Shown here one piece after another: positions 52,845 to 58,973 of a stretch of DNA of 64,000 nucleotides. The first letter of the stretch is position 1. Every line of letters starts with the position of its first letter. A model generated the notes under the pieces. That model did no database searches, had not been told where the DNA came from, and saw only the letters and a list, made by a program, of their open reading frames with translations. Both the position numbers and the translations under genes were made by a program. The DNA comes from Oscillatoria nigro-viridis PCC 7112 (lineage in GTDB: Bacteria; Cyanobacteriota; Cyanobacteriia; Cyanobacteriales; Microcoleaceae), in the NCBI RefSeq assembly GCF_000317475.1, contig NC_019729.1, forward strand, positions 3,548,501 through 3,612,500. The letters run 5' to 3'.

Positions 52845-53885
52845 TCATTCCCTGGCGGACTGGCAGGTGGCCATGACTATGCCCTGTTTGGCCGATGCCC
52901 TATGCCCTAAGACAATATCCCCAAAAATCTTACTGGCTAAAACTCTTGCTAAATTCACAGGAACAGCATTGCCGACCATTTTGTATCCATCAGCAATATA
53001 CTTGTACTTAAAAATAAACTCATCCGGGAAAGTCTGAACTCTCGCACACTCTCGCACAGAAAGCCGACGGTAAGGCAGAGGCGAATTGGGGTCAAAAATG
53101 CGTTTGTCTTTGCCAACCAGAATCATTTTACTAGCTTGAGGATGGAGAGGTGCGTGTCTGCCGCTTGCCTGAATTGTAAAAGAAGGTTCTGACCAACTTC
53201 TCACTCGATTGCGCGACATATAAAGGCTGGAAAACCCCAAATCCGCACATTCGTGATTTGGGACACAATCGTGATAATTATCTAATTTACCCTTAACTGA
53301 CATAGGGGCGATCGCCTGCAAATCGAAAATCGCATCTTTCAGCGTCAAAACATTGGTTCCCGGTTGGGGATACTCAAAACCAAAACCCAGATTCTGCCGA
53401 TAACCAACAACAATCACCCTTTGCCTATCTTGCGGAACATCAAAATTTTTAGCATTCAACAACTTGTACAAAACCCGATACCCGATTTCCTCAAACTGCG
53501 ATAATATATAAGTAAAAGCTTCCTTGTTTCTGGGAGCCAAAATACCGCTAACATTCTCAGCTAAAAAAAACAAAGGCTGCTTGTCCCGCACAATCCTGAT
53601 ATACTCCCAGAAAAGTTGACCCCGACTGTCATCAATCCCGCGTTTCGCCCCGGCTTCACTCCAACTTTGACAAGGAGGGCCGCCGATTATCCCAATACAG
53701 TTGGGAATTTCGTCAGATTTGATTTTTCGGATATCTCTGCGATCTAAAATAGTTTCAGGATGATTAAAATTATACGTATCCCAAATAGACTTATCATATT
53801 CATTCGCCCAAACCGCATTAAAGCCAGCCAAGCGAAAACCCAAATCCAACCCACCACAACCACAAAATAGAGAAATAATATCCAA
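52845..53885 (-). CDS. M.HaeIII-like DNA (cytosine-5-)-methyltransferase, orphan
   Basis: The roughly 346-residue protein has motif I (ISLFCGCGGLDLGFRLAGF), IV (GGPPCQSWSEAG), VI (LAENVSG), VIII (QDRQRVIVVG), IX (RRLSVRECARVQTFPDEF) and X (DGYKMVGNAVPVNLA). The segment IGGPPCQSWSEAGAKRGIDD and the recognition region SRNRVRSWSEPSFTIQASGR are very close to those I remember for M.HaeIII, so GGCC is the likely target (inference). No restriction enzyme adjoins it. TTG at 53885 is preferred over the 5'-most TTG because AAGG lies five bases upstream. The last 20 residues lie in the intergenic-type repeat, and the stop codon is inside it. Confidence 0.9.
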   Translation of the reverse strand: MDIISLFCGCGGLDLGFRLAGFNAVWANEYDKSIWDTYNFNHPETILDRRDIRKIKSDEIPNCIGIIGGPPCQSWSEAGAKRGIDDSRGQLFWEYIRIVRDKQPLFFLAENVSGILAPRNKEAFTYILSQFEEIGYRVLYKLLNAKNFDVPQDRQRVIVVGYRQNLGFGFEYPQPGTNVLTLKDAIFDLQAIAPMSVKGKLDNYHDCVPNHECADLGFSSLYMSRNRVRSWSEPSFTIQASGRHAPLHPQASKMILVGKDKRIFDPNSPLPYRRLSVRECARVQTFPDEFIFKYKYIADGYKMVGNAVPVNLARVLASKIFGDIVLGHRASAKQGIVMATCQSARE

Positions 53886-54043
53886 AGCCACCTTTTTTAA
53901 CCCGCAATAAATACAATAAATCAATTATAAACCTCTCTTTTCTTAGATATCTATCTCTTACTTCTCTCCCTCTGCGCCCTCTGCGCCCTCTGCGGTTAAG
54001 AAAAAAAATCTAATTCACACACAAACAGAATTTATCATCCTCA

Positions 54044-55314: not shown

Positions 55315-55890
55315 TCAGAATTGTGTTTCTTCCTCAGTAAAGATAGGAGGCCACAATTCCGAAACGGGCAATTCCCAACCGGGAAAAAGTTCTGCTACTG
55401 TTAAGATATCGCCATTTCCTAAAACAGTCGGTTCACCTGTAGGGCGATAAACAGTCACTGTTTCTTCATCGGGATCGATCGTAATTCCGACGGTCGCACC
55501 CAATTCTATAAACTTCAAAACCTTGGTTTCTATAGGCTTAATGCGATCGCTCTGAGATTTAATCTCAACCACCAAATCCGGGACAAGTTCTCCAAAATAA
55601 CGCGGACTTTGGCGCAAGCGGGCGGCGCGCACAAAAGAAACATCCGGTGCTTTGACATTCGTATCCGGCATGATGAAACCGCCTGCAGAGTCAAAGACTC
55701 TCCCCAAGCGACGGGGATAAACCCAGTTACCCAGCAAGCGAATCAAAATACTGCTGATTTCACTGGATACGATGTCTGATGGCCCCACAATGGAAAGTCT
55801 CCCGTCTTCTAGTTCAATTTTGTAATCTAAACCCGCTTCGGAAAAAAGGGTTTGAACTTGGTTTAAATCTTTGACTGTCATCGCTGGCAT
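55315..55890 (-). CDS. Uma2/DUF820 family protein (copy d)
   Basis: The 191-residue protein of the Uma2 family has the MPDTNVKAPDVSFVRAARL strand with the conserved Asp, ELVPDLVVEIKSQSD (catalytic Glu) and the pattern FIELGATVGITIDPDEETV. It lies convergent with and 5 bases after folC. It is more divergent from copies a and c than those are from each other. Confidence 0.88.
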   Translation of the reverse strand: MPAMTVKDLNQVQTLFSEAGLDYKIELEDGRLSIVGPSDIVSSEISSILIRLLGNWVYPRRLGRVFDSAGGFIMPDTNVKAPDVSFVRAARLRQSPRYFGELVPDLVVEIKSQSDRIKPIETKVLKFIELGATVGITIDPDEETVTVYRPTGEPTVLGNGDILTVAELFPGWELPVSELWPPIFTEEETQF

Positions 55891-56182
55891 AAGAATTTTC
55901 TCCTATTCCGATCTGAGCTTTGATTTTAACACAAGTCAAATTTCTGAATATTTGATTAATTCAGGCTATATTCCTACACATCATCAATCAAGCTGAATTG
56001 ATAAAGGCGATCGCACGGCAGAAATAAACTCAGTTTCTGGGATGAGCGATCGTTCTTCTCAACAAACATTTACCTCTAAAATAGTCGAGATTGACTTATC
56101 CAGAGTTCTCCTCCGACTCCGCCTTGTGAAGATGCGGTAATTTCATCATTCGAGAATAACTTAAAAGCTGATATCTGCTTAT
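55891..56182. other. Intergenic region, no gene
   Basis: About 290 bases upstream of the first 65-bp direct repeat, with gcgatcg motifs and no supported coding frame. Confidence 0.35.
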
Positions 56183-56247
56183 ATATGGCGGCACACATTC
56201 CCATTATTTAATAATACGTCAAGTGGTAGAAAAAAGCAAGGGGCGAG
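56183..56247 (+). repeat. 65-bp direct repeat, left copy
   Basis: It starts atatggcggca and ends gcaaggggcgag. The copy at 57590 has about 57 of 65 identical bases, and both flank the toxin-antitoxin pair. The core ttcccattatttaataatac is identical and partly palindromic (ttatttaataa). Confidence 0.9.
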
Positions 56248-56346
56248 ATCAAAAAAGATTAATGCCTAATGGCTAATGCCCAATGCCAAATGCCAAATTT
56301 TTGTTACAATACAAGTGAGTTTATAAAAATTTAGAGAGAGAAGTTT

Positions 56347-57051
56347 ATGAGCAGCCTTATATCGGTGCAAACGCTAATTGAATATATAGAAGCTTTGCCA
56401 GCCCAAGAGCAAACTTTACTATTTGAGGAGCTTTTCAGGCGAAACATAATCAAGCAGCGTCAGGAAAACATCGATTCTTCTACAGTCAAGGTAGCTGGTG
56501 AGTCGGCGAGCGGGCAAGCACTAGAAAAGTTTCCAAACACGGCCAAACTTTATGACGCGCTTCGCAAAGCAGACCCGATTATCATTGGAGAAAGAGAAAG
56601 GCCGCGCCAGGAAAACACCAAGCAGACAGTCAAGACAAAAACACTCTTAACAGGTAACGCTACCTGCGACATTCGCGCAGCCGATCGCACTAACTCTGGG
56701 GGCGACCTCGACAGCTCAACTGCTAACATAATCATTAAAAACGAATCAGACACAACAGTCAGTGCAGCGTTGCTGGGATGGCCCGAATGTAAAGCTTTTG
56801 GCGAGACGCGATCGCAAGCACTGCAAAACCTTCACGATTTAGTAAATGCCCAGCTAGCCGAAGCAGAAATCGTCTCTGTCAAATTCACGAATAGTCGATC
56901 GAACAATCCTTGGGTGAGGTTAGCTGGTAAGTATGAAAACGATCCGTATTACGATGAGGTATTGGCGCACATAGAAGAATCTCGCCGCGAACTCGATGCA
57001 GAAACCGAAGCTTATTACAGTCAAATTGACGCTGCGGTTGAGACCCAATGA
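56347..57051 (+). CDS. HicB-like antitoxin of a PIN toxin pair
   Basis: The 234-residue protein opens MSSLISVQTLIEYIEALPAQ, a helical start common in cyanobacterial antitoxins. It contains a HicB-like stretch at about residues 135-180 (TTVSAALLGWPECKAFGETR, SQALQNLHDLVNAQLAEAE) and an acidic C terminus. The next gene begins at its stop codon (overlap ATGA). The middle (about 45-125) is Ser/Thr/Lys-rich with no motif. The fusion of these parts is longer than usual antitoxins. Confidence 0.75.
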   Translation: MSSLISVQTLIEYIEALPAQEQTLLFEELFRRNIIKQRQENIDSSTVKVAGESASGQALEKFPNTAKLYDALRKADPIIIGERERPRQENTKQTVKTKTLLTGNATCDIRAADRTNSGGDLDSSTANIIIKNESDTTVSAALLGWPECKAFGETRSQALQNLHDLVNAQLAEAEIVSVKFTNSRSNNPWVRLAGKYENDPYYDEVLAHIEESRRELDAETEAYYSQIDAAVETQ

Positions 57052-57479
57052 GCCAATACATAATTGATACGGATTGTTTCTCCCTTTGGCAACAGAATCA
57101 TCCAATGATGGTGCAGCGGGTCGAGGTTAACGCAGAAAACCTTGCTGTAACTATCGTAACCGTAGAGGAAGTAATTCGCGGCTGGTTCAATGTTATCAAC
57201 CAGGCTTCGGCACCTTCGCAAGCGGACAAATTAGTATGGGGTTACACCAGGTTATGGGATACATTAGATGATTTCAAAAATCTCAACATTCTGAAATTTG
57301 ACCAGAATGCTTCCACTATTTACACTGCGTTCCATCGTCAAATAAGACGAATCGGCACCCGAGATTTGCGGATTGCTGCTATTGTACTTGCTAATAATGC
57401 TATCCTCGTTACGCGCAACCACCGACATTTTTCGCAAGTGCCTGGTTTAGTGCAGGAAGACTGGACAATTCAACCTTAA
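57048..57479 (+). CDS. VapC-like PIN-domain ribonuclease toxin
   Basis: The 143-residue protein has the PIN pattern: first Asp in YIIDTDCFSLW, the conserved Glu in VTIVTVEEVIRGW, and TRDLRIAAIVLANNAILVTRN with the second Asp, ending with the strand NHRHFSQVPGL. These acidic residues hold Mg2+ for RNA cleavage. It overlaps the antitoxin by four bases, so the pair is translated together. Both genes lie within 65-bp direct repeats, pointing to acquisition as a unit. Confidence 0.88.
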   Translation: MSQYIIDTDCFSLWQQNHPMMVQRVEVNAENLAVTIVTVEEVIRGWFNVINQASAPSQADKLVWGYTRLWDTLDDFKNLNILKFDQNASTIYTAFHRQIRRIGTRDLRIAAIVLANNAILVTRNHRHFSQVPGLVQEDWTIQP

Positions 57480-57589
57480 AAGCAAGCGCGATCGCTAATC
57501 GTAAGGTGCGTCGCTCCCGAAAATTTGGTGATAATTTGAAGCTATTCGATGCGACGCACCCTACAGTTAAAAGCCGATTTATTCTTCTT

Positions 57590-57654
57590 ATATGACGGCA
57601 CGGATTCCCATTATTTAATAATACGTCAAGTAGCCACAAAAAGCAAGGGGCGAG
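57590..57654 (+). repeat. 65-bp direct repeat, right copy
   Basis: The second copy of the repeat at 56183, same orientation, 111 bases past the toxin stop. After it comes the stop of the minus-strand binding-protein gene. Confidence 0.9.
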
Positions 57655-57689
57655 CAGAAAAAAAATCCCGCCCCAGCTTCAATAAAAAA

Positions 57690-58973
57690 CTACCTTTGAT
57701 CCCAAGCCACAGCCGCATCAGCTACAGCTTGTTCCACAGATTTCTCATCCAACATTGCCGCTTGCAAATTGTCATAAATCGCTTTTTGCAACTTCTTAAC
57801 ATCCTTGAGAGGCGGAATCAATAGCTCGGCGGAACTCAACCCAGAAGCACTAATAACCCGAGCTCGATCGGCAGCAGGAGCATCAGCAGGAACACTCTTA
57901 AAATAACCGTCCTGCAAAGCCTCAACCGTAGAAGGCAAAACATTAGCAGCCTTAGCAAAAGCCAACTGATTTTGAGAATTAGTCACGTACAGAGCAAACT
58001 TGACAGCATCATCAGGGCGCTTGCTGTCGCGGGGCACAACCAAATTCATCACCGCCACAGTCTTCTTGCCGGTTTCCCCCGTAATTTGAGGCGCAGCAGC
58101 CGAAACAGCACCAATACTCGGAGCATTCTCAGAAATCGCCTTCAAAAACTGAGGCCCCGAAGCTAACAAAGTAGTTTCTCCAGCTTGATAAAGCTCGATC
58201 GCCCTGCGATGTCCCTGCACCAAAACATCCTGCGGCAAAAGTCCGTCTTTGTACAAATCTACCCAATACTGAAAAACAGCTTTCCCCTTAGCTGTATTAA
58301 AAGCAGCCTTGCCTTTAGCGTCAACCAAAGGCACACCCATCTGCACGAAAGATTGCAAAACTTCCGCCGAATCTTCCGGCACAAACGTCACAAAAAAAGC
58401 AAACTTACCAGTCTTCTCCTTCACCTGCTTGGCAACAGTTGCCAACTCGGCATAAGTAGCAGGAGGCTTAGCAATTCCAGCCTTCTTCAACAACTCCGTA
58501 TTGTAAATTGTCACCCCAGTCGTGAGATACCAAGGAATGCCAAAACTCTTGCCGTCGAGTACACTAGCTTTCCAGATATTTGGGAGATAGAGCGATCGAA
58601 CTTGCTGCGGAATCCGAGAATCCAAATCCAGCCAAGCATTGCGTCCCGCCAACAGCGCAGCAAAATCGGGATTCAGGTTCACCACATCCGGCGCATTTTT
58701 CGCCGAAACCGCCCCCAAAATCTTGCTTTCCATAGCCGACCAAGGAACGTCCACCCAACGCACCTTCACCCCCGGATTTTGGGCTTCAAAACCGGCGATC
58801 GTCTTGTTGAAATACTCAGTAAACTGAGGTTGAAGCTGCATAGTCCAGAACTCGATTTCCTGCGTATTATTTGCCTGGGAATTAACAGCCGGCTTGCTGC
58901 AACTGACCACCGCAGCCAGCAGCAGCCCCACCAGCCCAAAAACAGCAAACAGTTGCCAAGATTTACGTTTCAT
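57690..58973 (-). CDS. ABC transporter sugar-binding lipoprotein (family 1 solute-binding)
   Basis: The 427-residue protein has a lipoprotein signal (LFAVFGLVGLLLAAVVSCSK, lipobox AVVSC with the lipidated Cys at about 26). The mature part has the family-1 binding fold: EIEFWTMQLQPQFTEYFNKT, WVDVPWSAMESKI, PDVVNLNPDFAALLAGRNAW and FGIPWYLTTGVTIYN. It probably captures an oligosaccharide or polyol for an ABC importer. No permease or ATPase gene lies in the window. Confidence 0.9.
   Translation of the reverse strand: MKRKSWQLFAVFGLVGLLLAAVVSCSKPAVNSQANNTQEIEFWTMQLQPQFTEYFNKTIAGFEAQNPGVKVRWVDVPWSAMESKILGAVSAKNAPDVVNLNPDFAALLAGRNAWLDLDSRIPQQVRSLYLPNIWKASVLDGKSFGIPWYLTTGVTIYNTELLKKAGIAKPPATYAELATVAKQVKEKTGKFAFFVTFVPEDSAEVLQSFVQMGVPLVDAKGKAAFNTAKGKAVFQYWVDLYKDGLLPQDVLVQGHRRAIELYQAGETTLLASGPQFLKAISENAPSIGAVSAAAPQITGETGKKTVAVMNLVVPRDSKRPDDAVKFALYVTNSQNQLAFAKAANVLPSTVEALQDGYFKSVPADAPAADRARVISASGLSSAELLIPPLKDVKKLQKAIYDNLQAAMLDEKSVEQAVADAAVAWDQR

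Follow-up and report, generated by a model that had tools for sequence, protein, structure and literature searches.

Insertion with long target duplication has been described for restriction-modification genes of Helicobacter pylori (PMC1643837, citing Nobusato et al. 2000). A locus of the cyanobacterium Oscillatoria nigro-viridis PCC 7112 resembled this pattern as it is outlined in that citing passage: a selfish-type gene pair without a transposase was bordered on both sides by direct repeats of its target, and the empty allele of relatives (G028, G029 and G013) contained one copy. It differed from the outlined pattern in its cargo, a toxin-antitoxin (TA) pair, in its duplicated target, a gene terminator, and in that the polymorphism extended across species of a cyanobacterial genus. 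By analogy, the pair appears to correspond to the insertion-with-long-target-duplication pattern known from restriction-modification genes. As in type II VapBC systems, a PIN/VapC toxin gene was preceded by a small overlapping antitoxin gene, but the antitoxin had no curated-family match, was weakly HicB-like and had a linker of variable length. Short variable segments with flanking direct repeats (PMC2884548) also resembled the locus in being present or absent and in having short repeats at their edges, but here a conserved gene pair and spread across species were involved. For repeats below ~30 bp, slippage was argued to be likelier than RecA (PMC2884548).

The window (the whole stretch of DNA analysed, 64,000 nucleotides of contig NC_019729.1, in whose positions features are given below) contained a 234-aa antitoxin ORF (56347..57051, + strand) and a 143-aa PIN/VapC-type toxin ORF (57048..57479, +) that started within the antitoxin stop. 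Both ORFs were intact in PCC 7112, with a 4-bp ATGA overlap. The 143-aa protein matched the PIN family (PF01850, E 1.9e-7, above the cut-off), models of tRNA(fMet)-specific VapC and VapC PDB chains (E 1.8e-7). Among its acidic residues, the N-terminal DTD and the EE were invariant, G026 had H in place of the aspartate of TQDL, and PCC 7112, G021 and G024 had H at the last acidic position (RNYRDF). The antitoxin comprised a conserved N-terminus, a linker differing in length between carriers, a weakly HicB-like part and a conserved C-terminal tail. The PCC 7112 protein had no match in Pfam, NCBIfam or PADLOC and no relative among viral contigs, and its AlphaFold model was unusable (pLDDT 39). 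A sequence-only reading of this DNA had labelled it HicB-like: no family match was found for the protein itself, and the label held weakly via its relatives (PF15919, E 0.01–0.18, below the gathering score), neither the protein nor the relatives reaching the HicB model at the curated score. That reading had also reported the lack of a transposase, and inspection of the ORF list by eye likewise showed no transposase or recombinase ORF at 53–61 kb. An ORF at 52845–53924 looked by eye like a C5 DNA methyltransferase.

The antitoxin family was detected in 45 of 149 genomes of the order, usually beside a PIN gene, and one distant relative was found on a Nostoc conjugative plasmid with a VapC gene adjacent. 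The antitoxin and PIN genes were intact and adjacent in all seven other carriers of this locus. Of 18 distinct loci that are more distantly related, 12 also had the two genes adjacent, some of these with truncated matches. Judged from sequence, the pair is predicted to have toxin and antitoxin activity.

The pair was located between two direct repeats, R1 (56182..56259) and R2 (57589..57666), both on the − strand in the promoter-like reading described below, which were 85% identical over 78 nt. A hand count over the 65 bases reported by the sequence-only reading gave 57 identical positions and 8 differences; these direct repeats were real. Within the 8.27-Mb genome, the match between R2 and R1 had E = 5.7e-21, which excluded chance. 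In a genome-wide repeat count, R1 and R2 were the only close copies; two diverged copies were located at C1:6462313 and 6462658, ~2.86 Mb from the locus. An Rfam search of 55900–57800 gave no match. The left neighbour was a Uma2-family gene (55315..55890, −), and on the right was an ABC sugar-binding lipoprotein gene (57690..58973, −), whose 3′ end was the insertion site.

R2 was found directly past the stop of the ABC gene, as its resident 3′ segment, and held the intact hairpin of an intrinsic terminator (57636..57674, −; an 8-bp GC stem followed by a U-rich tract; −20.1 kcal/mol, z −2.97). R1 combined the promoter-like repeat with one arm of this terminator, the partner arm being absent. 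R adjoined the ABC gene in most of the genus genomes that lacked a TA pair. Two to four direct copies were present at this site in G012 and G006, again without TA genes, and G001, G004, G005, G018 and G019 each had a second, weaker copy. The 3′ end of the ABC gene was duplicated together with R in G009 and G012; in the latter (L046:6914-8281), four direct R copies, three of which were spaced at 456 bp, accompanied the duplicated 3′ end. R was absent from all 18 distinct loci elsewhere that carried TA or PIN homologues (19 records, one locus being recorded twice). Because R was resident at TA-free sites and absent from these homologue loci, R is, on sequence grounds, an element of the site (intergenic sequence 3′ of the ABC gene) rather than a terminus of the TA unit.

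An alignment of 38 R copies in the minus-strand reading showed a common promoter-like pattern of TTGAC, 17 bp and TAT(T/C)AT, with a conserved ATGGGAATCYGTGC...CATATA stretch after it; at this locus the first hexamer was TTGCTT. The promoter reading of R rests on this conservation across copies, since R was not picked up in a consensus promoter scan. Matches to an R model (E ≤ 0.001) were found in 60 of 149 genomes of the order, representing 39 of 81 genera; some were tandem arrays, and some copies elsewhere formed inverted pairs, including close pairs ~120 bp long.

The TA pair was detected in eight of 30 genomes of the genus, every time at this site; the named carriers included Tychonema sp. 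LEGE 06208, Lyngbya sp. CCAP 1446/10 and Microcoleus sp. FACHB-61, and several carrier genomes were metagenome-assembled. The unit common to carriers (56296..57482, +) extended from the promoter region (TTTTTGTTACAAT) through the stop codon of PIN and an A-rich junction. Its left edge at ~56296 recurred in G009 and G025, and five of the seven other carriers had the same left junction. Six of the seven had the same right junction, at which the PIN stop ran into AAAAGCAAG. Two ~28-bp terminator pieces alone edged the unit in five other carriers, whose right side had just the final ~28 bp of R. The left copy of this direct repeat in PCC 7112 was AAAAGCAAGGGGCGAGATCAAAAAAGAT (56232..56259), and left and right copies matched at 21–26 positions. 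Only PCC 7112 and the divergent G009 had a second complete R next to the TA pair. On the right side, PCC 7112 had, in place of the direct junction, a MITE-like palindrome (GTAAGGTGCGTCGC...GCGACGCACCCTAC, 57501..57564), which six other carriers lacked at this junction, and the complete R2. This complete R2 probably arose later, as a change specific to this lineage, because the TA tree placed PCC 7112 inside the direct-junction group; a short-homology deletion in the other carriers is a possible alternative.

In G028, G029 and G013, the Uma2 gene was followed by a single R and then the ABC gene, with no TA pair between. Their flanks showed ~92–98% identity. G028 and G029 are single-contig genomes, and no antitoxin relative was detected anywhere in the G028 genome at E ≤ 1e-8. 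The single-repeat empty site predicted by the sequence-only reading was thus found in the closest relatives, and the pair proved to be a patchy segment of the genus. The same reading had set against its proposal of excision a dispersed repeat with no one-copy empty site in any relative; R did turn out to be dispersed, and the one-copy site exists. Its treatment of the 65-bp repeats as ends of the TA unit was not supported, given the residence of R without the pair and at other loci, its absence from the 18 homologue loci and the ~28-bp right-hand pieces of the five other carriers. The empty sites themselves could be ancestral, recombined or derived from excision.

Among seven close carriers, dS was 0.02–0.06 for the C-terminal part of the antitoxin and 0.01–0.19 for PIN (values over 0.09 all came from pairs that included G017), whereas it was 0.10–0.60 for the flanking folC, Uma2, ABC and pilM genes in the same carrier pairs. 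The TA pair was more closely related between species than its flanks. The contrast was only about twofold between PCC 7112 and G014, and was reversed between G024 and G017 (PIN 0.19, ABC 0.10), indicating that flanks were exchanged too. TA dS to G009 was 0.35–0.79, indicating that TA silent sites were free to evolve. In many pairs of close carriers, though not against G009, PIN dN was roughly as large as dS; this and the variable length of the antitoxin linker may reflect either selection or decay. In the TA tree PCC 7112 joined G021 (support 99), whereas in the rpoB and flank trees it joined G013, G029, G028 and G014. Given TA dS below flank dS and the conflict between TA and species trees, the pair most likely moved between species recently, after the species had split. 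Taken overall, trees and dS favour gain and transfer over loss, while single branches may have seen either.

We consider it probable that a VapC-type TA pair was inserted with target duplication and was spread and lost via host recombination. The pair would have been inserted once into the terminator of the adjacent ABC sugar-binding gene, and this insertion would have duplicated ~28 bp of the terminator, leaving an intact terminator to the host gene. Later spread among species of the genus, at the same site, would have proceeded through import and crossing-over in common flanks or repeats; the agent would be host recombination, the unit having no enzyme of its own, and loss by the same route would leave one repeat. 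PCC 7112 would then carry a lineage-specific version, with the palindrome and a complete resident repeat to the right of the toxin gene. Several points count against this reading: the left and right ~28-bp repeats, which match at only 21–26 positions, are short for RecA; the dS contrast is weak for some pairs; several carriers are metagenome-assembled; and the position of empty genomes among carriers in the rpoB tree fits ancestral presence with many losses. That the pair is a transposase-free TA cassette moved by host recombination between cyanobacterial species at one fixed terminator site, with the repeats of the site as its attachment ends, is put forward only tentatively. The locus would be a clean natural case of a TA pair that behaves like such a target-duplicating insertion. 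Its carriers, empty sites and target terminator can all be seen, and it would open TA gain and loss without a transposase to direct test in cultured strains.

An unlikely course of events is that proposed by the sequence-only reading, in which recombination between R1 and R2 in this lineage releases a 1.4-kb circle and leaves one R, the TA pair protecting its own segment. R1 and R2 had exact runs of 28 and 17 bp in common (the longest), the sister genomes had one R, and the R of G013 and G023 combined an R1-type left part with an R2-like right part, all as this would predict. Yet simulated crossover products were only 85–87% identical to the empty sites with neither crossover point preferred, single-R sites were frequent also in genomes distant from any carrier, and the full second R was confined to the two carriers named above.

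Rather more doubtful is that the TA pair was ancestral and lost many times, so that the empty sites are deletions and the low TA divergence reflects conversion or unusual constraint. Empty genomes were indeed interleaved with carriers in the rpoB tree, nested among them, and junctions were common to carriers. Against this, TA dS was several times below flank dS in most pairs while reaching the values given above to G009, and the TA tree conflicted with the flank trees. It is highly improbable that a transposon-like element (IS or MITE) carried the pair and that the repeats mark its ends: R was dispersed with some copies in inverted pairs, as such an element might be, but the copies here were direct, no transposase was among the listed ORFs, and R occupied this site in TA-free genomes while missing from the 18 homologue loci. 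Insertion with target duplication and host recombination remains our preferred reading.

R-like elements were also observed elsewhere in the order. At L155 (G168:C1:1569163-1572296), 15 R-like matches formed a direct array of ~3.1 kb, and direct arrays were also seen at L156, L157, L161 and L162, each element with the promoter-like pattern and a conserved short leader. These arrays may represent a cyanobacterial family of promoter or small-RNA repeats that is as yet undescribed. Like the NsiR1 tandem small-RNA repeats of Nostoc (PMC9045159), they are promoter-bearing direct tandem repeats of cyanobacteria, but the L155 array lay between cytochrome-oxidase-like and hypF-like genes (named by eye), unlike NsiR1 (hetF). 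Identity of R with NsiR1 (PMC9045159) was set aside on location alone, not on sequence. At L115–L127 and L129, which lay between genes for coiled-coil and RuvX-like proteins, two convergent R copies surrounded a variable segment, often with a formylglycine-enzyme-like gene (all named by eye).
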